This document shows positions 6,026-55,800 of a stretch of DNA of 64,000 bases, one piece after another. A program made the position numbers and the translations under genes. A model generated the notes under the pieces. The model searched no databases. It saw only the letters and a list, made by a program, of their open reading frames with translations, and was not told where the DNA came from. The stretch is from Isoetes taiwanensis. Its lineage: Eukaryota > Streptophyta > Lycopodiopsida > Isoetales > Isoetaceae. Position 1 is the first letter of the stretch, and each line of letters starts with the position of its first letter. Location of the stretch: positions 188,001 to 252,000 of the forward strand of contig JAJEKV010000104.1 in the NCBI GenBank assembly GCA_021234155.1, written 5' to 3'.

Positions 6026-6186
6026 CTGTTTTAGCCATAAAAGATTGATAACGGCCCCGAAATCAACCATAGGCTGCCGTTGTAACTAAATCGATGAACG
6101 GAATGGGTGGTATGGCGATCCAAGGACTTTGACCTAAAAAAGGGCCACCCAATTCAGAATTCCGGCACTAGATATGGCGGGATGAA

Positions 6187-8136
6187 ATGGGCAGCCGGAT
6201 TGAAGAGGCTATGTACACAGGATTTTCACTTTGGGATCCAAACATGCCTACCGGGGCTACTTTAAGCTGGAACAGAAAAATGAGGATGAAATTTCAGATG
6301 CCCAAATCGCTTCCTGCATCGCCCGCTTTGATGAAGGAGATGGAAAATAATCGATCCTTGTCGCCCTTCGTTGTTGCTTCGCATTTACAAAATGTAAGGG
6401 GAATGTGTCGCCGGATTCAATCCCAAAATAGTCTCACAGAACGCAGAAAAAATCCTTATGATGTGGGTATTTATCCTGCTTTTGTCAGACGAAGTGGCTT
6501 GATGGACAAAAAAAATGGTTTGATTCAGAAAAGAAGACCTCAAACAGCTCCTCCAGGTGCTCCATTTTCTTACACAACTCCTGAACCCAAGCTTTTGTAT
6601 GATATTTCTAACAATCCAATCTGTAGATTGAATAAAAGAGCTTCTTCTCGTGGATCATTAACAAGCAGATCCAGTAGATCTTCTTCTGCAAGATTATATG
6701 GCAAAATTATTGACAGACCTGTTTCTACTAGTGTTTTTGAAAGAGGGCAAAACAGATCATTGATGAGAATAAAAGGACCTTTATCATCAAGAGGATCTGC
6801 AGAAATTCCATCTCCGGTTTTGAATAGCGAAAGAGCTTTGGTTGAATATAAACCTGGATCAAGTAGTGACAGAAGTGGTAACTTCAAGCAAATGAAAGAA
6901 AATTTTGTAACAGATGAGAAAAAATTGCTACAAAGGCCTCCTTCTAGGTGTATGAATAGGCCTGCTTCAAATCAGCTACACATTGATGCATATAATAAAG
7001 ATTTTTGCTCTGATTCTGATTCTGCAGCTTTGTTAGACTCTCCAAGATCAGAAATTCTTGAAGTAAGGCATGTGCCCTTTACTACCATTTCTCCACTTAA
7101 GCTTGAAAATCTCCGGAATGATGAATCTGGTAGATCAGAAATTTCTTCTCCAATTCAATCTTCTAGATCTTCATCTCAGACCTCTGTTGGTGAAGCATAT
7201 TCTCATTATTTTAGAAGGCCGGAATCAAGATTTTCTAAAGAATATAGAGAATCTTTATCAGGTAGCGAATCAAGACTTGAATCCCCTGTTACGGAGGGGG
7301 ATGAATCAAGATTTTACAGAGCACCATTGTCAGGCAGAGATTCAGGATTTGAATCTCCTGTTTCAGGCAGAGAATCTACTGAGTCAAGGTTTTATAAAGA
7401 ATACAAAGAATGTTTATCAGCTCGGGAAACTCAGGCTATTGCAGAAAGTTATGAATCAAGAGCTTTGAAAGAATATAAGGGATTAATTCCAAGCAGAGAA
7501 TCAGAGCTTGAATCCCCAGTTCTTGAGAAGGGTCACAGTGCCAGAAGTGAAGAATCTTTAAGAAAAAGATCAGAACTGCAAAAAGGGGCAAAGAAGACCG
7601 TTCCTCAGAAACAAGAAATGCCCAAATCAGCAGACAAAAAAATTCAAGCAAATAATCGTGCAGCAACAGCTACAAGGCCTAAATCTGCAGCCGCTGTTAG
7701 ATTTTCTTCAAGTGTTGAATCTGCAAAAAGACCTAAATCTTCAGTTCTAAAAAATGGCAAGGTCACATTTGCCAGTCCTGTTGAAAACAGGCCTCAAACC
7801 CCCGATGCAAGAAGCAATAAAGAAAGAAAACTTATCAGAAGAGAAACTCACTCGATAGCCCGGCGGAAGCCACAGATCGAAGAACCCATTGCAGATCATA
7901 ACTCGGGCGACGTGATTCTGAAGCATTCGTCTGATCCATTCATAGATTTCAGAGATTCTATGCTTGAAATGATCGAGACAGAAGGGCTTTGCTCTGATGA
8001 CCCTGCTTTGGAAGATCTATTTCAGTATTATTTGGATTTGAACCCTGTTAGCCACCACAACATCATCAAGGATGTGATTTTGGAGGTAAAGAAAGAAATG
8101 CAAAGATCAGGCAGGAACCCTAAACACTCTGAATGA
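6187..8136 (+). CDS. OVATE-family protein with long repetitive N-terminal region
   Basis: This intronless 649-aa protein ends in a recognisable OVATE domain at about residues 581-634. It opens with 'SSDPFIDFRDSMLEMIE' and closes with 'LFQYYLDLNPVSHHNIIKDV', matching the DPxxDFRxSMxEMI and YLxLNxxxHHxxI pattern. OVATE proteins are plant regulators that repress transcription, bind TALE homeodomain factors and TRM proteins, and shape organs. The first 570 residues are basic, Ser/Arg-rich and probably disordered. They include imperfect repeats at about 345-460 built on 'ESRFYKEYKE', 'LSGRES' and 'LESPV'. Most OVATE proteins I know are 200-400 aa, so the extension is unusual. The first ATG of the frame is used, and no intron is needed. 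A palindrome cluster lies just upstream. The domain call is strong; the N-terminal function is unknown. Confidence 0.88.
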   Translation: MGSRIEEAMYTGFSLWDPNMPTGATLSWNRKMRMKFQMPKSLPASPALMKEMENNRSLSPFVVASHLQNVRGMCRRIQSQNSLTERRKNPYDVGIYPAFVRRSGLMDKKNGLIQKRRPQTAPPGAPFSYTTPEPKLLYDISNNPICRLNKRASSRGSLTSRSSRSSSARLYGKIIDRPVSTSVFERGQNRSLMRIKGPLSSRGSAEIPSPVLNSERALVEYKPGSSSDRSGNFKQMKENFVTDEKKLLQRPPSRCMNRPASNQLHIDAYNKDFCSDSDSAALLDSPRSEILEVRHVPFTTISPLKLENLRNDESGRSEISSPIQSSRSSSQTSVGEAYSHYFRRPESRFSKEYRESLSGSESRLESPVTEGDESRFYRAPLSGRDSGFESPVSGRESTESRFYKEYKECLSARETQAIAESYESRALKEYKGLIPSRESELESPVLEKGHSARSEESLRKRSELQKGAKKTVPQKQEMPKSADKKIQANNRAATATRPKSAAAVRFSSSVESAKRPKSSVLKNGKVTFASPVENRPQTPDARSNKERKLIRRETHSIARRKPQIEEPIADHNSGDVILKHSSDPFIDFRDSMLEMIETEGLCSDDPALEDLFQYYLDLNPVSHHNIIKDVILEVKKEMQRSGRNPKHSE

Positions 8137-22570: not shown

Positions 22571-23360
22571 GTAGTCATGACAGAGTCTCTGCCATATAAA
22601 TTTATGTATTGTTTTACTGACCAATCCATCTGAAACCTGCATATCCACAAGCACTAACTGCGGATGTTCAGATATTGCCAATGGAATACCTATCTTTGTA
22701 TAAATCTATGACCTTTTTTTTCCAAGCTTCATTTTATCTTTATCTAGGGACAAATTAAAATCGATACAGGCTAGCGTAGCCGATGGAGGATTACCAAGGA
22801 CATGGTCCTTATTAATGTTCGACTTATGTATACAGTATCCGGATCAGATATTTCAAGCATGCCTTTCTCTTAGAAATTCTAGAAATCTTGATAGCAAATA
22901 CTCGAAATACTCAAATTGCTCTTTTGAAACACTATTCACATATGCAAGGAACTCTCTTTCCATCAAGGTGAGAGTTAAATAATCCATTGCACGCTGCTTG
23001 TACTCTGTGTGAGAGATGTTGTTATCGAACAACATGTACCACTAAAATGGGTCAAAGCATCCCTTTAGGTGTCTTATGAATGTCTTACTAAAAAATTCGT
23101 TAGACTGTCTTTCTGGAGGATCTTCTAACAATTTGCTTTTACCCTTTTTGGATATAATACTCAACACCTTGTATTATATTGTTTCCAGCATAAGAATCTG
23201 CTACCTCTTGCCCCGTAAATTTCTTACTTTTAAAGTAGCAGTAGCAACTTCATGGAACTCCTGGAAGAAGTGTTAGAGGTTGAAAACATTACGGTTGACG
23301 ATTGTTAGAATCTAAAGGAAAAAAACTCCGAAAGTTAAAAACTAGCTCTTAAACATTGCA
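22571..23360. other. No gene recognised
   Basis: A 60-aa minus-strand ORF at 22853-23035 has good composition but no recognised domain; it may be more of the adjoining LINE. Confidence 0.3.
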
Positions 23361-23363
23361 TGA

Positions 23364-23450
23364 ATGAGAATGAGAATGAGAATGAGAATAAGAATGATTT
23401 TTTATCGTCCACTGAGGCCAATCGGCCTATGGGACCCATAAGGAGCTAGA
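23364..23450 (-). mobile_element. LINE 3' end with (GAATGA)n tail
   Basis: Read on the minus strand: GGTCCCATAGGCCGATTGG, a short spacer, TGGACGATAAAAAATC, then a TTCTCA/TTCTTA microsatellite. This is the same 3' signature as the LINE ending at 49.63-49.80 kb. Only the 3' end is left, as expected of a 5'-truncated insertion. Confidence 0.7.
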
Positions 23451-23944
23451 TATATATATACATATCAACTAGCTCGATCTTAGACTTAGTGGGAGGACCG
23501 TGTACAGGAAGTCCAAGAGCTTTGTGCTAGTTTCTCAGTTGCTGAAATCTTCTCAAGGAGAGGCTCCCTATAGACCATATTAGCAATAATGTGGCCGAAA
23601 TGTGAAATGTTATTTTTATAACATAAGGTTTGCAATGGTTTAATTGGGGTATTCGTATGTGGAATGTTATTTTGCTGACGGTGGCAAGGGGGATTCGAAA
23701 CCCTAGAATATTGGGCGAGCGTCTTGTGCCTGGTTGGCCAGAACTGTGAGTGCCGCCTTAGGGTGCTCCAGGGATGGCGAAGCTGCTGGGGTCGGAGGCC
23801 CTGATGTGTCGTGGCTGTGGGCTGTTGCTTTTTTTGGAATTCTGGATAAGTTGGGGTCAGGTTCGTTGGTGGGGAGCGGAGGTGGAGTGTTCTCGAAGGG
23901 GAGATGGGTAAGCCGGCCGTGGTGTTTTCGGGGCTTTTGTTTTT

Positions 23945-25397
23945 GTGTGTGAGAGTCCTGGTTGCTCTGTCCCTGGTTCTGTGAGCCACATCATAAACCT
24001 GAGTTCTTTCAATTCCCAAGAGAATGGTCGTGGTTTTTCTGCTGAGCAGGACTGGAATCTTATAGATGTGAGTGTCACCTTAGGTCCGTCTGGGCAAGAT
24101 GTGCCCATGAGCTTTTATGATGGTCTTGTGGGATTTTGCAATCGGAGGTGTGTTACTGGAGTTGTGGCCATGGAGCGTGGTGCTACTGTAGATCATTTGC
24201 ATTGTCAGGCTGTGTTTAGAGCCCGGTTTAAAAGTCCTAGGGCCATGAATGATGCCATAAAAAAAGATTTTAATTGGGTTTATAAGCCTCCTGGTGTGAT
24301 ATTGGTGTGTAAAGCCCTCAAGAACACTTGTCTTCATTGTTTTGAGGGTATGATTGGGTATTGTATGAAGGATGTGGGAAAGGTTCATTATGTCTGCCAT
24401 CTTCATAATGTGAGCGAGGCTGCCATCGAGAAAGGTAAGGATTTGTATTTGAGATGGGGAGCTGGTGATACGAAAAACTTAGTTGTTCTTGATAACAAAA
24501 ACTTGTTGAATCGAGCTGCCCATTTTGTAAACTATCACGGGAACCGTAGATTGACTGCTAGCTTGTTGTATACACTGGCCAGAATGATTCGTTCTGGAAA
24601 ATTTACATTGTCCAGTTCTTGGATTATCCCTTCTAATACTGCCCATATTAATGAGCACCGTGTCCGGGCTGCATGGAGGGTCCTGTTGAATCCTAGTCAC
24701 TGCATGCCATCGGATATGAGGACAATTTTGTTTGGGCTGCCAGCAGGTTTTGTACCTGTGGAACGGAATGGGCCTGGGAGGAGGCGGTATTGTGATGATG
24801 CTATTCCTATTGATGAACAAGATAATAACTTTGAGGATATTCATGATGATTCTTATAGTGGAGACAGTGATGGTGTTGTCATTCTTGAGCCTGGTGTGGA
24901 TTTCATCCCTGTGCACAAGGGTGATTGTACCATGGCTGTTGGGTGATGATCTTGGTTGCATCTTCATTGTACATTTGGGTTTGTTTTCATGGCTTTCTTT
25001 GTTTTTAGTTGCAGGGAATATGGAGACTGATGGGGAACCAGTTGCTGGCGTGGAGCAACCTGTTGTGTCTCTGCCTGACTCTTTCATTTCTTCTGCTGTA
25101 GAAGCATCCCATCCAGACCCTGTTGTATTCTCGGCTGAGCCTGAGGCAGTGTTTTGTGCTCAAGAGTTTGTTAATAGCATTATCCAGGTTGGAACTGAGG
25201 CGCATAGGATTGCGGCATCCTTGCGTTTGCTCAGGCGGCAGCTTAGAGGGTTTTATGCCTCAATTCACAATGTCATATCTGCTGTGGAGTGGGATCAGAT
25301 GGAGGTGCCCGTTTCTGAGTTGCACATCTTGCGCTCTCATATGAGCTTTGCGAGGGTCTTGCTTGTGCAAGAAATACGGCAACTAGGAACTTATTAG
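23945..25397 (+). CDS. Rep-like HUH endonuclease of the transposon (two exons)
   Basis: Exon 1 (23945-24920) and exon 2 (25015-25397) join through a GTGATT...TTGCAG intron to give an open frame of 452 aa. Rep motifs are in order: a first strand 'LIDVSVTLG'; motif II 'MERGATVDHLHCQAVF', with Glu ahead of the His-Leu-His metal site; and motif III 'YCMKDVGK', the Tyr/Lys nicking motif. This is the layout of HUH nickases that start rolling-circle replication by covalent attachment to DNA. No helicase Walker motif is seen. Exon 2 has a conserved, largely helical segment ('QVGTEAHRIAA', 'LRSHMS', 'ARVLLVQEIRQL') of unknown role. The start codon is uncertain: earlier in-element sequence is also partly open. 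The intron donor is inferred. The enzyme class is an inference from motifs, but a strong one. Confidence 0.8.
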
Positions 25398-25756
25398 GCA
25401 TGCACAGAGTGGCTCCACTATGAACTGATGTCTTTACATGTTGTTCTGTTGGTTTTTGTTTTTGTGTATGGGCTTGAGAATTTGTATTGTGGGAATAATA
25501 GGTATGCTTTTGTTCTAAATGCCGTATTCAATATGTTTCAGCAGGATGGAAATGCTTGACAGATATGGATGCTTTGCTGGCTCTGAATTTGTCACGTGTT
25601 TGCAGTTGTTAAACAGATTTGTGTGGAATGTTATTTTCATGACCTCTTCAATCTGTTTGAGCAGCCTGCTGCTGTATAATGTGGCCGAAATTTTCAATGC
25701 TGTTTTTCAAATTCTGTGCTTCAAACAATATGCTGGTACTGACTTCTTTGGTTTGT

Positions 25757-25862
25757 TAGTGGGCTTCGGGCCCTAAACATACTAGGCATCCCTCTTCTGG
25801 GATTCCTAGTATACTTGGATGAGCGTCGGAACTTCTACTGGGGTTCGACTCCCCAGGCTCAT
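25757..25862 (+). ncRNA. 3' structured end of HUH element, copy 1
   Basis: Three potential hairpins follow one another. GGGC-TTCG-GGCCC at 25760-25773 has a UUCG loop. TACTAGG...CCTAGTA at 25780-25811 has an inner CATCCC/GGGAT stem. A minihelix at 25819-25862 has outer stem ATGAGC/GCTCAT enclosing CTGGGG-TTCGACT-CCCCAG. The last loop fits the tRNA T-loop TTCRANY, and GGTTCGACTCC is a perfect Pol III B-box. All are kept in copy 2. It may act as DNA (nicking or termination site) or RNA; that it is transcribed is not shown. Confidence 0.65.
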
Positions 25863-26057
25863 AATTATTTGTTTGATCAAACTCCCAATTTTGAGATGTT
25901 GTATTTATTCAATGGTTTGGTTGGATCATTGGGGTAAGTCAAATATAGGGGATTTGACCCCATCTTGACTTGCACTTGAGGGCTGGAATTCCGCCCATGG
26001 CATATGCTGTGAAATATGCCAGCATCGGATGGTCCCCAAAAAATAATGGACACCCAA

Positions 26058-26140
26058 ATGATAATAGAATTGAATTGAATTAAATTGATTTTTATGTCCC
26101 AAGGGACCAAAGAGACCAATGGCCTATGGGATCCAATAAA
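26058..26140 (-). mobile_element. LINE 3' end with (CAATT)n tail
   Basis: On the minus strand: GGATCCCATAGGCCATTGG, then GGGACATAAAAATCAATTT and an AATTC microsatellite. This is the shared LINE 3' signature with a different tail repeat. The HUH element ends directly beside the tail. Confidence 0.68.
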
Positions 26141-27765: not shown

Positions 27766-28590
27766 CTACAATAAGTCACCAATTGGACAAAATGTTATGG
27801 TGTAATTACTACAAGCTTGGCATGTGGTTATAGTATTAGTGTCATACAAATAGCCACATGCCTCTGGGCAATATTGTTTGAAGACTCGTGAATATTGACT
27901 TGAGTTACATGTTCGTGGACTACCATATTGTCCTGTGCAACAATATGCATCGGTCTTGAATACTTGGCAAGCACTCTTACAACCAACAATGCCCCCCATA
28001 ATTCCATGAGCCTGCAACTCAACAGGGCAATGTAAGTTCATATTATCATGGCAACCAACAGTGTCACACAAATGATTACTGGGGGCAATTCTCATTGGCA
28101 GATTGAAACCATCAATTAAAGAGACACGATAAAAATTAAAACCTTCATATCCATTTAATTTGAACTCTGCTATTGTCATGGGGGGTGTCCCCTTAGTGCC
28201 ATTGCAATTCCACTTTTTATTACAATCTCCTGTCTCACATTGCCCAATACCACTAGTATTGAAATTACACAATGATCGCCCCCAAAATTGTCCAGCCCAT
28301 CCAAATGGCACTTCAACATTTAATGATTGGAATGGAAAAATATGCCCCCCTCCTCCACTAATTTTTGGTTGATAATCATCTGAAATCCATGCTGGCCATA
28401 TAGGAAATAAGCATGCATTGAACAGGCGAATGCTTGTTGTAGCTTCTCCCCCTACACAACATTTGCAATTCTAGATTTTACTAACATGCAAATTTGATGA
28501 ACCATATATTTGCATTACTAAAAAAGCATGATGAATACCGAATCTCGATGTAGATATGCTAAACATTAAATAAAAAAGAATGATAGACAT
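27766..28590 (-). CDS. Thaumatin-like protein (PR-5 family), two exons
   Basis: Exon 1 (28590-28539) encodes the start of a hydrophobic signal peptide, MSIILFYLMFSIS. An 87-bp GT-AG intron follows, and exon 2 (28451-27766) carries the rest. The join is in frame and gives 245 aa, the usual size. The signature 'GIGQCETGDCNKKWNC' fits the thaumatin pattern, followed by 'PPMTIAEFKLNG', 'VSLIDGFNLP', 'GCKSACQVF', 'YCCTGQYG' and a C-terminal 'NYTITFCP'. I count 18 cysteines in the mature part rather than the standard 16. The family secretes disulfide-rich proteins, often induced by stress or pathogens, some with glucan-binding or antifungal action. In the acidic cleft set (REDDD), the usual 'FYDVSL' Asp is Arg here ('FYRVSL'), so classical antifungal activity is doubtful. 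Confidence 0.92.
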
Positions 28591-40349: not shown

Positions 40350-40611
40350 ATATACATAACTGTCGGTGTATGTTTGGCTTTCTTATATCATTTGGAGTAT
40401 GTTATCATTTGGGGTGTTTCAAAATTTGTTTGGACCATTGGATTGGGCATATTATAGATCATATTCCCTCTCATGGTCTTTTGGCCCTTCAATGCAAGTC
40501 AAGATGGAGTCAAATCCACCCCATTTCACTCACCCCTCCAACAGAAAACCATCCCATGGTTTCGATATTTATGAGAATGGAATATTCCAGCAGCATGACC
40601 ATCAAATTGCT

Positions 40612-40712
40612 ATGAGCCTTGGGAGTCGAACCCCAGCATGATTCCCACGCTCATCCAAGTATAACAGTCATCCCACACAAGGGATGGCTGTTATGCCCAG
40701 GGGCCGAAGCCC
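40612..40712 (-). ncRNA. 3' structured end of HUH element, copy 2
   Basis: Read on the minus strand: GGGC-TTCG-GCCC (40712-40700), then ATAACAG...CTGTTAT with inner CATCCC/GGGATG (40694-40661), then a minihelix 40654-40612 with outer stem ATGAGC/GCTCAT and inner GGG-TTCGACT-CCC. Compared with copy 1, the second stem has other bases but still pairs throughout, while the T-loop and outer minihelix stem are identical. Confidence 0.65.
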
Positions 40713-40968
40713 GCTAATACATCAAACAAGTTAGTCCTTCTGTCAAACAACAATAAACAATGACTTAACAAATGATCTCAAAATAATTTCGGATGAATAG
40801 CAATGACATATGATTTTGCATAAGCAGCATGTTCATATACAACCAACAACATCCACTTTTAGCACAACCATACATTACCTAAAAACAAACTGTACAATGT
40901 GTTGAAGGAGACTCAACCAAGCCATGGAATCTTGCAAGCACTATAGTAAACATCCACATCAAGGTGAA

Positions 40969-42690
40969 TCACAAGCTCACATGGAAATAAGAAAACATAA
41001 ACAACAAGGCACAAGCACAAGCACAATAAGAACATTTCATGGCCGAACCACTCTGCGCATGCCTTATGACCGCATCTAACTGACGTATCTCCTGAACAAG
41101 CAAGGCTCTTGCAAGGCTCATATGAGAGCGCAGTGTGTGCAACTCAAGAACTAGGGCACCCAGGTGCTCCCACTCCACAACGGATATGGCACTATCAATG
41201 GACATGTAGAATGCATTGAGCTGCCGCCTGAATACACGGAGTGGTGCTGCAATCCTATGCGCCTCAGTGCCCACCTGGATCACATTATTAACAAACTCAT
41301 GAGTGAAGAATGCTGCCTATGGCTCAGCTGGATACACAACGGGGTCAGGATGGGAGGCATTTATGGCAGATGAAATCAAAGATTGTGGCAAGGACACAAC
41401 TGGCTGCTCCACACCACGAACTGCATGGGGTCACCCTCCATTACTCCTGCAGCTGTACAGCAAAGAAATACATGAAAACAATAAAACTGAACTATACAAT
41501 GAACACCCAAGCAACTCTATCAACTAACGGCCATCATACGGTCACCCTCCCTTGTGGATGGAGAGGTGAAAGCATGTTAGGGCCTACATAAAAAATTACC
41601 AAAAAGGTACTTTTCTGTGTACTTCTGTGCAAGTACATAGTTGTATTTTAAAGTACCTAGACTGCAAGATTGACTAAAAGAAATTGTGTTATGTTCAAGA
41701 GTAGTAGTACATACATGTTGTAAGGTACCTTGTGATGTCAAGAAGATGTTAAGAACTCAAATATATCATCATCTTTGACTACCCAGAGTATTTTTCAGGT
41801 AGTTTCCAAAACATGTAGGCCCTAACATGCTCTTACCCGGAGATGTAATCCACACCAGGTTCAAGTATGACCACATCAAGGCTATTAGCACTATAAGAAA
41901 GATCATGTATGTTCTCAATATTGTTCTCCTCCTTATCAGCAGGAATGGCGTCATCCCAATAACGCCTACGCCCAGGCCCATTCATTTCCACTGGCACAAA
42001 GTCTGCTGGCAACCCAAATAAGATGGTCCTCATGTCGGACGGCACGCAATGGCTAGGATTCAACAACACCCTCCAAGCTGCTCGAACCCAGTGCTCATTG
42101 ATGTAAGCCGTATTTGAAGGTATGAGAGAGTAAACTTCCTAGATCAGATCATTCTGGCCAAGGTATATAACAGGCTAGCAGTTAGCCTACGGTTACTTTG
42201 GTAATTGACAAAGTATGCAGCTCTATTCAAAAGATTCTTATTGTCAAGAACAACAAGGCTCTTCGTATCACCAGCCCCCATCTCAAATACAGGTCTTTTC
42301 CCTTCTCAATAGCAGCTTCACTGACATTATGCAGATGACAAACATAGTGGACTTTACCAACATCTTTCATGCAATATCTGACCATGCCTTCAAAGCAATG
42401 AAGGCGGCTGTTCTTGAGGGCCTTGCATATCAGAATCATGTCTGCTGGCTTTGAGGCCTGATTAAAATCTTTCTTTATAGCATCATTCATGGCCTGATGC
42501 TCTTGAACCGAGCTCTAAAGACAGTCTGGAGTGCAAATGATCCACACTTTCACCACGCTCCATGGCCATGGCTTCAGCCAGACACCTTCTGTTGCAAAAA
42601 CCAACAAGGGCATCATAGAAGCTTGTGGGCACATCTTGCCTAGACACACCCAAAGTCACGCTCACATCTATGGCGCTCCATTCCTGGCCA
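40969..42690 (-). pseudogene. Rep-like HUH endonuclease, copy 2, inactivated
   Basis: Exon 1 shows 'IDVSVTLGVSRQDVPTSF', the HLH metal site, 'RYCMKDVGKVHY' and 'VGFCNRRC'. Exon 2 shows 'IQVGTEAHRIAAPLR' and 'LRSHMSLARALLVQEIRQL'. A one-base loss occurs directly after the HLH codons, another frame break follows 'LYLRWG', and a TAG replaces the Glu of 'AEPE' in exon 2. The splice donor CCGG-GTAAG is recognisable, directly against the MITE. The protein cannot be made whole. The C-terminal region runs longer than copy 1 ('RHAQSGSAMKCS'). Confidence 0.78.
41571..41831. mobile_element. MITE inserted in the intron of HUH copy 2
   Basis: Terminal inverted repeats AGCATGTTAGGGCCTACAT at both ends, 261 bp apart, no coding. 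Removing it brings copy 2 to almost the same length as copy 1. Target-site duplication is not clear; the flanks GGTGAA and GGTAAG (inverted) are similar, so the repeats may be a little longer. Confidence 0.75.
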
Positions 42691-43407
42691 AGAGAAGGGC
42701 CAGCAGAAGGCCTTCCAATTGAGGATCTCCAGAAGAAGACCCAATTTTAATGAGCTTAGAGAAGGAGGCACAGAGCAGGCGAAACCCTTCCATTCCTCGC
42801 TGCTCTCCTCAAAGACATCACATAATAAAACAGCGAACAGAGATGGCTTACTTGTAGCTGAGATCGCCTGACAATATCCTAGAGCTATAGTCGCAAAAAA
42901 CCCAGCCTATTTATAACAGATGAGCGATACATACTCAGCCAGGAATAGCCGGCCATCTGCGCCTTCGCCATCTGCTGCCCACGTGAACCCAAGTAGTCCC
43001 GACCGACAGTAGGCCAGATTCGAACCCTAGATTCCCCTATTTGGAATCCAGGTTGCCAGCATCACCTTCTACGGTATTCATATACGTATACCAGCAAAAA
43101 CCATGCAAAATCTTAGGTTATATTTCTACCCTTCCTAATTTCGGCCACATTATTGCTATAGGCAAGATTCGCTTGGATATTATATAAAAGATTCTGCGTC
43201 ATCGGGCAAAAAATGGAGAGAAAAAAAAAACACTAAAAATTTAGCGGAGCAACAAGGCAAGGGAAGACCTTCCGAGTTTCGACGCCATAGCCGGCCCTTC
43301 ATGTGCCACCGGATTCTAAGAACAAAGGTCCTCATGCTATACTATGAGATTGCATCTGGAGCCGCTAATCCTGCCGCCGCCTGTTTAATATCGATATTAT
43401 ATAAGAA

Positions 43408-48799: not shown

Positions 48800-49803
48800 T
48801 AGAAAAGATTGGCAGGGATCCTTTGACCGAGTACAGAACTCATAATGACTTACTCTTAGCATTCCAGAAGGTGGTCGCTATGGCTGATACACGCTTGCCC
48901 AATCTTGCTTTGGCCACGGCGATGGGTCCTCAATGCCTGAAATCCTGCTGGAAAGACAAGCAAGCTCAGTGGTTCTCACGCTGGGGTGTGCAGGCAAACA
49001 AATACGTCCAGGTCAGGACAAAGAAAGATCGCAAGGCACTTAAGCTGTACCTAGATGCTACTTTCCTTCGCAAGCTTTGGGATGCAGATGCTCTGACGCA
49101 TGTTAAACTGGCACACTATCAGCAGCAAGTCAATCCTAGGCTCACGAGAGGCCTACACCAGTACTTGTACACCCAGCTGCCCATGAAGAAGCGCAGACTT
49201 ATAGCTTCCATTCGCACGGGTGCACATCGCCTCCGCATTGAAACAGGACATTGGGCTCGGGAAGCACGGGAGCAAAGGGTTTGTCAGTGTTGCCACCAGG
49301 GTGCTATTGAGGATGAATGTCATGTCCTCCAGATCTGCCCAGCATTTGATCATATCCGAGAGCGATATGCTTGATTACTAGTGCCTGGCTAGCCGTTGCA
49401 TCAGTTATTGACCACGGCGTCAGTGGGTTTGTTGGGGTCATACCTCCAGGAGGTTATGGATGCACGGACTCATTGTGTCCTACGGGACGGCATTGAAACT
49501 GTCCTATAGAACTGTACAGCGTTCCAGCATACTTATTACTGCTAAGGTTTTTCCCTCGAAAACCCTTCGGGGCGGGGGGTTTTTTAATTCTGTCAGTAAT
49601 AGGCTTGCTGCTCTCTTTTTGGTTTGGGTCCCATAGGCCAATTGGTCTCCGTGGACGCTAAAAATCTATTCTTATTCTTATTCTTATTCTTATTCTTATT
49701 CTTATTCTTATTCTTATTCTTATTCTTATTCTTATTCTTATTCTTATTCTTATTCTTATTCTTATTCTTATTCTTTTTCTTTTTCTTATTCTTATTCTTA
49801 TAT
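48800..49803 (+). mobile_element. 5'-truncated LINE inside the chromovirus integrase region
   Basis: An open frame to 49374 encodes the C-terminal end of a LINE ORF2: 'LPNLALATAMGPQCLKSCWK', 'WFSRWGVQ', 'GAHRLRIETGHWAREAREQR', then the Cys-His box 'CQCCHQGAIEDECHVLQIC'. It closely parallels the copy at 58.9 kb ('RLKRCWK', 'WFARWAVQ'). The 3' untranslated part has GGGTCCCATAGGCCAATTGG and TGGACGCTAAAAATC, followed by a (TTCTTA)n tail to about 49803. The ORF begins upstream in chromovirus RNase H text (EPMKAEYKNDPFF), so the frame is a chance fusion across the insertion point. Confidence 0.82.
49663..49803 (+). repeat. (TTCTTA)n tail of the LINE
   Basis: About 140 bp of TTCTTA repeats, with a few TTCTTT variants, at the LINE 3' end. 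Long ORFs of Phe/Leu through it are artefacts. Confidence 0.92.
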
Positions 49804-50599
49804 CAGAATTGCACATGCGTTACACAGGCATACAGGTCAAGAATAATACAAGAATCTCATGAACCTCTATACTCTGGGCATAGAGGCACTCAAGCTATCT
49901 TGGCAACTACAAAAAGATGTCTTTATTGGCCTAAGCTTGAAAGGGATGTTAACAGATATGCAGAAGCATGTGTCATTTGTCAACAAAGAAACCTTCTACT
50001 AGTAAGCCTAGATTGCTACAACCTTTGCCAATTCCTGAAAAACCTTAGAAGCATATTACCATGGATTTCATCCAATGATTACCAAAGACCGCTCACAAGA
50101 ATGATCAGATTTGGACAGTTGTAGACAGGTTGTCTAAACAGGTTCCTTTTCCTCCGTGTAAATCAAACATGACTGCACCACAAGTAAGCAAGATTTCCTT
50201 GAAGGAGATATTGAGGATTCATGGAATGCCGAATGCAATCATAACAGATTGGGATCCATTAGTTTGCAGTCGGTTTTAGTCAGGACCCATAAAAAATTCA
50301 GGCACGACTTTGAAGTTTTCTATAGCCTATAAGGGAAGTGAAATTTCTCCTGAGATCTTGTAGAAGATGGAACATGCGGAACCTCCCAACATCAAGGGTG
50401 ATGAGGAGGTGCTTGAACCTGAAAAGATACTCACGCACCAGGATAAGGAGACATGGGCTTTCTCCTATCGAAGGTATGTAGCTAAGCTCAAATTTCATCC
50501 ACCCTCTGATGCAATGTGATATTCTAAGGACCAACTTAAAGAATACAATGCACATGTGGATGAATATGAGCAAACTTTGCAAAAATAAAAGGCAAAGTT

Positions 50600-52877: not shown

Positions 52878-55800
52878 TCTATATATAATAATAAAGGCGT
52901 TTTGTGATAGTCTGTGCGCAATCTTGCGCGTTGAATTTTTTAACTTATTCTCATCCGTTGATTTTGGCAGTTTTTTTTTTGATGTGACGGTTCTGGCTCT
53001 CTTCTTCCCAGAAATAGCCGTAGACTATCTTTCCCACCCACAGCGTCTGTGTCTCTTTTTCCCTTCTATTCCATCCACCTTCTCGCTTGCCTTGCCTTCT
53101 CGCCCAGCCGTCTATTTTATGCTGCAGAGTTTAGGTCTTCTCATCCAGTTTCAATTCGGTCTTGCTCAAATCGCCAGTTAGGCCTTCTTCTTGGAATCGG
53201 CTCTGCAACTCCATTCGGCCTTGCTTCAGTGCTTGTAGCGTCTTCTTTGCTCTTATTTTCCTTGTGGCTTGGTGTGGTCGATTTTATTGTGGCTCAGATT
53301 TGGGGCTGCCGTGCAATCCAAAGACTCCAAGATCTGCTGTGTGCTTGTCTTGTCAGCCCAAGTCGGCCAAGCAAGGGCTGTAGGAGGATTTTCGGCCATA
53401 CCCAGGTACCGTCACTTACCTCTGCTGTAATTTTGATTTCACGGCGAGGTTCATTGGGCCGTTTCAATGTTTGTAGAAGACCTATGTTTGCTTAAGAAAA
53501 TCTTCTGCATTACTTAGATTTCATGACGGATATGCTCGCAAGTGAATTGTCCCTGTTGGGAACCTTTTTGAGAGATGGTTCTTACAATTTTCAAAGCCAT
53601 ATCTGTAGTGTCGATTTTTATTTTGAATACGTTGACGGTTGGGATTGTAAAAGAGGCAGTTTTGTAGGGTGTTTCTTTCATGCGGCTGCATCCAGCTTGA
53701 TTCTGAGATTAGCCAATAGGTTGATTTCTCAATCTGTGGTGGATTTCAAAACTCTGGTAGGTCGATTTCTAAATCTCTGGTGACTTTCGAAACTCTAGCT
53801 ATTACGCAATTTTTTTCTTATTCAATTTATTCTTAAATATGTACATTTCTTTGGGCAGAGGATATGTTTGTGAACATCGTCTCACATTTGGGCAGTTGGG
53901 CGCCTAGCTTTCATTGTAATGCAAATTTGTAAGTTCTGCCTCCTCCTGCCTTTGATCGTTTAGGCATTTTGTTTTTAAGTTTCTACTTCGATCTGATCGA
54001 TGTGTGAGCACTGTGATGGAGATATTTGATCTAAGGGGGAAGAAGGAAGCATAGGATCTGCCCACGAGTTTGCAGGGGGAACCCTATCAATCTGTATCTT
54101 AGCTACTGATGATGAAGCTAAGCTGGCTCCGCTCGACAACTTAATTGAAAACCTCTCTCCCGCTTAGACCATTTTAAAAGATTTTATGATGGTTCAACTT
54201 ACCTTCTAATATGGACTTTGTACTGGCACATTTCTTGAGGCACAAGATAGTAGACTGTGTATTGCATCCAGCAATATTGGGTGGTATTTTTCCAACAAAA
54301 TCTGGGGTCCTGGCGATGGTGCAGATCTGTCTGGCATGTTTACATGGGCGAGCTATGGGCAGAAGAAAAAGAAAACCTGAATAGTTTTTATGTCATCATC
54401 GGGGCATCTCAATGATCTACACAATTAAACTACTACTTTGAAAACTTGGGAGAATGTTGAGATCTTGCATAATCTGAAGACCTAAGTCGTTTCCCACGCT
54501 AATTTATTTGCAGCTTCTATTTCAGATGAAAAGATGGAAGAGTTGTCAGGGAAGCAAAAGGGAATAATGGATCTTCTCCAGTGACAATGATTGTATCATT
54601 GTTGCATCTTTGAATATTTGTATGTGGGTTCTTTCTCTCATTCAAAATCTGCTTAATAATAGATCATTTTTGACATGCGGCATTCCTGTAATCAGTTCTG
54701 ATATGCAGCATCTTGAACTTCACTATGTAGCAGGTTCAGACTTCAAATTATGTGCAGGCATGCTCCCGAGACAAGATGCAGTAGCTTGGACAGCATTGAT
54801 TTTGGATATGTGGAAGGTGGACATTGAAATGCTTTATGCAGATGCAGCTGGAAGGCATGTTTCCAAATATTGTCACATTTATTTATGCCTTATGGCATTA
54901 ACCCAAATGCAATCACAATAGTTCTCTATTTGAAAGCCTATGGCAGCATAAGAGCAGTGTAAATGCAGTGGTCAATATGTTAAGATATACTAAGAATGGA
55001 TTTGGGATAAAGGCACTTCAATGTTTTGAACAAATGCAGCTGGTGGGCATACTTCCGGATGCTATCACATTTGCAGAAGAAGGAAAGGAAACAGGTCACT
55101 AAACGTGCTCAACGTGGTTTTGCTCAGGAGTCATTAAATTGCTTCAAAGAGATGCAAGCGAAGGGCATATGTTCAGACTCTCTCACATTTATTTGTGCCA
55201 TGAAAGCATGTGTAAGCATGGGAGCCATAGACGATGCCCGAGACATCTATACCCTGGTCGTTAGAGATGGATCTGGTGAAGATCTTGTTGTTGGTAATGT
55301 AAGATTTAAACCCGTCTAATTCAGCCCCACAAATCCAGACCGTCGAAAATCTACAACAATCAGGTCTATGAACAATGAGTTTTCCTTAAACTTCTGTTCT
55401 GATACACCCGCTCATCGGATTGCTGCCTGGTTCGTTGCCAAGTCAGCCACAAATTTTGGTGCTTTTCCAGTGGCTTCACAGGGTAAATTATTTTCCTTTT
55501 GTTCTCATCTCTTTTATCAAATTCTAAAGCAGAATTTTGGGTTGTCTATTTGGATCTGCTTTGTATTTGTTGTCAATCCTCTTAATGATTTTCTGGTGCT
55601 CATGCAGAATGCTTTTGCCTGGCATGTAGGCAGGGTCTCTGATACATGTAAGGCTACATTTTTTTCTACATGTTTCATCATATAAAACTTCTTTACCATC
55701 ATGCATAATATTTAAAGATCTTGTGATCATCTATATGCTCTTAGAAGCTCAGAACCCAGCACTATTGAAGAAGGCATGGTAGATTCTTGGGTGCTTGCTG

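Follow-up and report, generated by a model that had tools for sequence, protein, structure and literature searches.

The locus and its features

A 64,000-nucleotide stretch of the Isoetes taiwanensis genome (GenBank assembly GCA_021234155.1, contig JAJEKV010000104.1, positions 188,001 to 252,000, forward strand), here called the window, carries two open reading frames (ORFs) enclosed by the short direct repeat ATAAT. The first, ORF1, has the motifs of an HUH nuclease, and the second, ORF2, lies directly downstream. We read this unit as a defective copy of a Replitron with an ORF1 HUH nuclease and a separate ORF2 under selection, with a probability of about 0.88. The original prediction had placed the element at 23581..26064, which was roughly right but a few bases off; since the comparison of ends among copies gives ATAAT on both sides, the common unit is 23586-26065. 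The features of the unit are as follows, in window coordinates.

23586..26065, + strand: Replitron copy, 2480 bases, with left end ATAATGTGG and right end GATAAT, based on the ends common to copies
23586..23590, + strand: left direct terminal repeat ATAAT, read from the sequence
23908..23909, + strand: donor-like GT (GTAAGC) upstream of ORF1, the GT itself present in 18 of 21 copies; putative splice site
23953..24946, + strand: ORF1, predicted HUH nuclease, 341 amino acids in intact relatives; start region deleted here, stop codon at 24944-24946
24092..24448, + strand: Replitron_HUH domain (PF21859 positions 8-127 of 128)
24173..24175, + strand: Glu of the ERG motif, unchanged in all 12 aligned family members and in all 5 rows with outside proteins
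24194..24208, + strand: HLHCQ, the HUH motif; H, L, H and Q invariant in the same 12 of 12 and 5 of 5
24359..24373, + strand: YCMKD, the tyrosine motif; Y, K and D unchanged in these same 12 and 5
24575..24703, + strand: weak Replitron_C match (PF21860, E-value 0.083, 13.7 bits), under the cut-off of 27
25013..25014, + strand: acceptor-like AG immediately ahead of ORF2, retained in 19 of 21 copies; putative splice site
25020..25397, + strand: ORF2, 125 amino acids here and 136 in relatives, the last residues differing through a 2-base difference
26061..26065, + strand: right direct terminal repeat ATAAT, read from the sequence; the 3'-end search stops at 26066

Copies, ends and insertion sites

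A DNA search of the 1.66-Gb genome to which the window belongs, with 40 of 1334 candidates scored, gave 61 matches to the element stretch among those scored, the best of which besides the window itself is 92% identical. Twenty copies besides the window were fetched. As supposed when the element was first described as a transposon, copies with shared ends are present: the left end ATAATGTGG occurs in 16 of the 20, and the right end GATAAT in 10 of them and in the window, the remaining 10 being altered or cut off at that point. The variant left ends ATAATATGG and ATAATGTGT are found in L026 and L028, and the left end is absent from L017 and L023. Among these 11 right ends, the likeness stops at GATAAT in 3 (the window, L012 and L015), and ACAC continues beyond GATAAT in the other 8. 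A right-end search of the genome, with 40 of 554 candidates scored, stops at 26066. No terminal inverted repeats are seen when both ends are read directly.

To look for empty sites, the two flanks of copy L014 were fused with the element left out and used as query, which returned 40 matches of 371 candidates. Five of these matches, all on contig C908, span the flank junction by at least 19 bases, and three distinct empty sites were read: AAGAAAG-AT-ATTGC in two and AAGAAAG-AC-ATTGC in one. The filled site is AAGAAAG-ATAATGTGG ... GATAAT-ATTGC, and the filled and empty sites together therefore indicate a clean insertion at AT. This one insertion fits both a 2-bp duplication and an AT owned by or shared with the element. 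A second candidate empty site, for L020, was ruled out because its sole extra match was another filled copy. Judged from these sequence comparisons, 23586-26065 is a copy of a multicopy mobile element.

Several further signals were noted at or near the ends:

23607..23624, + strand: palindrome ATGTTAT-TTTT-ATAACAT near the left end, graded weak
25676..25691, + strand: internal repeat of the left end, ATAATGTGGCCGAAAT, read from the sequence
25998..26021, + strand: 3' hairpin, TGGCATAT-8-ATATGCCA, based on stem conservation among copies

The 3' hairpin has a stem of at least 7 bp in 13 of the 15 copies that possess that end; when this end of the window copy is shuffled, 56 of 2000 sequences do as well. 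The 5' palindrome is weak, with a stem of at least 6 bp in 11 of 18 copies, a length that 105 of 2000 shuffled versions of the window segment also reach. The left-end sequence recurs within the 3' part of the element both in the window (25676-25691) and in L011, where it forms a 58-bp piece; this internal repeat could be a second nick site or the remnant of a nested insertion.

Some copies have irregular right ends. The final 17 bases of L014 (ACACCCCAAATGATAAT) are present twice, and the ACAC beyond GATAAT in L014, L010, L017, L018, L020, L023, L025, and L026 looks as if the right end had undergone partial re-copying or read-through. In L022 and L025, some 80 bases downstream of ORF2 (near element positions 1930-2011) are matched twice, as a tandem duplication. 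The bases preceding ATAAT are frequently CA, for example in GCA in the window, L011, L016, L022, L025, and a second copy in the window; this is perhaps a target preference.

The window copy itself is damaged. About 50 bases that include the ORF1 start codon are missing from it and present in 19 of the 20 others (L023 is cut off there); because the start is deleted, the copy is defective, and any movement of it would depend on other copies. Its ORF2 also ends early through the 2-base difference. In a pattern test of 21 copies, ORF1 is open from its start to the usual end in 6, ORF2 in 14 (counting the altered one of the window), and both in 3. The second copy, of the same family group, is older and broken:

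40402..43153, - strand: second Replitron copy with pieces of ORF1 and ORF2, DNA pieces 69-76% identical

Its ORF1 tail is split by an insert of about 260 bases. This insert has inverted repeats (GTTAGGGCCTACAT / ATGTAGGCCCTAAC) and, from its sequence, looks like a small inverted-repeat transposon.

ORF1 encodes a predicted Replitron-type nuclease

The open frame at 23912-24946 spans 344 codons from stop to stop and holds ERG...DHLHCQ and then GYCMKD. The original prediction had recognized Glu, HLH-x-Q, and YCMKD as motifs of a Rep HUH nickase; all three do share this one frame, with a gap between HLH and YCMKD of about 55 residues and not the 65 initially given. The nickase reading itself is supported by the Pfam profile Replitron_HUH (PF21859), which matches ORF1 with an E-value of 2e-20 and 73.9 bits (cut-off 28.5), so far over the cut-off that the motif set is not a chance occurrence, and by the invariance of the motif residues in all 12 family members aligned. 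Replitron_HUH is matched by each of these 12 and Replitron_C by 8 of them at E-values up to 1, the best being 0.0098.

With the ORF1 of the window alone as query, no protein was found in the protein database; a family profile of ORF1 found four outside proteins there. Two of these, P0001 (from EukProt) and P0003, pass both Replitron cut-offs and have the two Pfam domains in the same order as the element described here. They are 28-30% identical to ORF1 over the aligned part, and are known from the protein alone; P0001 also has in common with ORF1 the tail DYVPL before the stop. Solved structures searched by sequence gave a best E-value of 0.43, and the profile search of them gave none. An NCBIfam scan of three proteins returned no match, PHROGs a single weak unnamed match (E-value 0.0024), and viral contigs 208 pattern matches, none of them a relative.

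A predicted model of the HUH domain (predicted local distance difference test, pLDDT, 82) has viral Rep domains as its nine top structural matches by Z, with middling scores, in agreement with the Rep-like fold that had been anticipated; those of circoviruses and geminiviruses are closest. A single-sequence AlphaFold model of ORF1 had a pLDDT of 34 and was discarded. The closeness of the modeled fold to these viral domains recalls an integrated CRESS-DNA virus, an alternative we group with a host gene family lacking element ends. Identity to the Rep nuclease domains of circoviruses, geminiviruses, and nanoviruses is just 8-18%, however. The Rep of CRESS-DNA viruses carries a superfamily 3 (SF3) helicase domain, and Pfam finds no SF3 or other helicase domain in ORF1 or ORF2, which upholds the earlier description of the element as helicase-free. 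Both forms of this alternative are contradicted by the ends common to many copies and by the empty sites, and we consider them extremely improbable; the element is a transposon and not a virus.

With 150 of 2165 candidate places in the I. taiwanensis genome scored, the Replitron_HUH profile exceeds its Pfam cut-off at every one of them; 14 control genomes gave no such place. Reading of 30 of the 150 loci sorted them into five families, A (that of the window) to E. The ORF1 proteins are 89-90% identical to that of the window in two other members of family A, 57-67% in B, and 33-42% in C, D, and E. In a tree of ORF1, used solely to order the families, A and B group together, followed by C and E, with D outside; branches are long and forks open.

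ORF2 is a separate conserved reading frame

The second stretch had been described as an exon that is conserved between copies and has no known domain. The observation holds, and the stretch behaves in its frame, substitution pattern, and copy comparison as a separate ORF. Third codon positions of ORF2 vary most across 25030-25299, although not across 25300-25389. No stop interrupts the frame in 15 of 21 copies (the other six have 1-3), and in those 15 the other two frames carry 1-4 and 10-12 stops. The ratio of nonsynonymous to synonymous substitution rates (dN/dS) is 0.12-0.51 in the 10 of 15 pairs for which it is computable, three of these near saturation; five pairs between families A and B are saturated at synonymous sites and give no value. 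Going by these patterns, ORF2 is under purifying selection.

ORF2 is also found beyond family A. The proteins of family B are 54-58% identical to that of the window, and a profile of A and B detects an equivalent ORF in the same place in families E (25.2 bits) and C (16.4 bits), with no shuffle as good in either case (0/2500 each, about 2000 of each 2500 being scored). Family D weighs against a conserved ORF2 throughout: the ORFs in that position score like their own shuffles (115/2500 and 466/2500). By sequence, ORF2 is thus recognizable in four of the five families (A, B, C, and E). A tally by eye over the 30 loci, four of which overlap the 20 fetched copies, found an ORF2 match or an ORF in that place in 25 (15 of A/B by tblastn, 7 of D, 2 of C, and 1 of E). 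The five loci without an ORF2 match (L031, L036, L043, L052, and L056) each have an interrupted or shortened ORF1. A search of the protein database with the ORF2 profile gave no relative. Of five ORF2 proteins scanned with Pfam, four had no match; the fifth, from L051, has one under the cut-off, to a DA1-like domain (E-value 0.029).

Expression of the two reading frames

The original prediction had joined ORF1 and ORF2 into a spliced two-exon protein of 452 amino acids. Many GT-AG pairs in the window could join both frames; for some of them, both splice sites are present in 19-21 of 21 copies. Within family A, conservation of the spacer separating the ORFs equals that of the coding regions. 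An AG also lies near the ORF2 start in the loci read of families B to E. A short GT-AG intron within a single transposase of about 450 amino acids would account for these observations. However, an open joined frame is weak evidence since so many pairs would produce one, and the spacer is dissimilar between A and B. The distance from AG to the ORF2 start codon is 5 bases in A versus 7 in B, so that the splice phase differs. ORF1, moreover, retains its own end: before the stop, family A has the tail DFIPVHKGDxTMAVG, family B DYIPIYTGDHTMAVG, family C DYIPLNFKDHSLSIS, family E AYIPLDFHDFDFDAL, and P0001 DYVPLHGSTGAFIAAV. When A is compared with B, the changes in this tail are mostly synonymous and the stop goes from TGA to TAG or TAA. 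The family D ORF1 ends differently (NWNSSFAAE), and in L029 of family B the tail is shifted. Because the tail and stop of ORF1 recur in other families as well as in P0001, and the joining frame is not conserved, the fused protein is unsupported, and we regard it as unlikely.

Two separate ORFs leave the question of how the second is translated. Re-initiation on an unspliced mRNA, or a promoter of its own, with the splice-like sites arising by chance, is a serious possibility that we place somewhat short of even odds. An ATG stands at the ORF2 start in all 21 aligned family A copies and in L032, L029, and L037 of family B, as this would predict. The retention of GT in 18 and AG in 19 of the 21 copies speaks for splicing instead, as does the ORF2 frame in the single copy of family E (L051), which has no ATG near its start and therefore favors either splicing or a damaged copy. 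Family B has a comparable leader, AACAG-GTTAGC in both copies inspected. An intron from the GT at 23908 to an AG near 24019, supplying the ORF1 start, was also considered and dropped, since the alignment put the start codon in the stretch absent from the window copy.

Relationship to Helitrons and Replitrons

Helitrons insert at AT without a long duplication, have a hairpin near their 3' end, and terminate in 5'-TC and CTRR-3'. The element resembles them as a eukaryotic HUH transposon with an AT insertion and a 3' hairpin, and could on these grounds be viewed as a Helitron derivative. Yet it has no helicase in ORF1 or ORF2 by Pfam and one tyrosine motif, its HUH domain scores as that of a Replitron, and Helitron-type ends are not present at its termini, which are ATAATGTGG and GATAAT (ATAAT...ATAAT). 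Derivation from a Helitron is thus very unlikely.

The proposal that the element is a helicase-free HUH transposon on a plant branch of the Replitrons is supported, and the other option raised with it, a separate lineage, is not, because ORF1 has a typical Replitron_HUH domain with a weak Replitron_C match behind it, in the domain order of P0001 and P0003. In the available part of a review (PMC10741241), Replitrons are already reported from lycophytes, ferns, and mosses, and are characterized by short direct terminal repeats of 5-11 bp, no inverted repeats, a length of 0.9-4 kb, and target duplications of 2-8 bp. The ATAAT repeats and the 2480-base length fall within these ranges. The element shares with Replitrons the HUH nuclease with one tyrosine motif, the absence of a helicase and of inverted repeats, short direct repeats, a size of 2.5 kb, and a plant-like host, and it may also share a short or absent target duplication. 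It differs in its second conserved ORF, whereas the available part of that review names the endonuclease alone among Replitron proteins. As a Replitron the element is ordinary and largely explained already; ORF2 is the part that might be new.

Other features in the window

Pfam identifies an Ovate repressor at 6172-8136 (+ strand), a thaumatin-family protein at 27766-28470 (- strand), and a retroelement integrase zinc-binding domain at 49603-50124 (+ strand). The ORF at 52983-53495, near a Helitron initially placed at 52.9 kb, has no Pfam match. By eye, the flanks of the element at about 23360-23440 and 26066-26135 resemble the ends of short interspersed nuclear elements (SINEs), with simple-repeat tails and, in both flanks, a similar stretch TTTTTAT..GTCC..GGCCTATGGGA. 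Scans for a hidden SINE (transfer RNA, Rfam) found no transfer RNA and one sub-threshold microRNA match.

Proposed mechanism and implications

In the HUH class, the tyrosine nicks one strand and the protein stays joined to the 5' phosphate. By analogy, the ORF1 protein would nick one strand at the element end through its tyrosine and remain bound to the 5' phosphate, and the nicked strand, once copied or displaced, may be joined to an AT at a new site. The ATAAT at both ends would be the predicted nick sites and the 3' hairpin a putative recognition signal. If the donor GT in the leader, at 23908, were spliced to the AG at 25014, ORF1 would be skipped, yielding an mRNA for ORF2 as a putative accessory protein. 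We tentatively suggest, at less than an even chance, that Replitrons in this genome carry two genes, one for the HUH transposase and one, ORF2, inherited along with it in families A, B, C, and E at least and possibly in D, and that ORF2 is made from an mRNA out of which the entire transposase gene has been spliced. If so, Replitron movement or its control would use two element proteins.

The genome offers at least 150 Replitron places in five families, with empty sites and open ORFs, and two questions thereby become testable: how a Replitron nuclease acts on its own ends, and whether a second protein is needed. Should ORF2 act as a helper or as a repressor, the one-protein view of Replitrons, as we take it from the available part of PMC10741241, would change.
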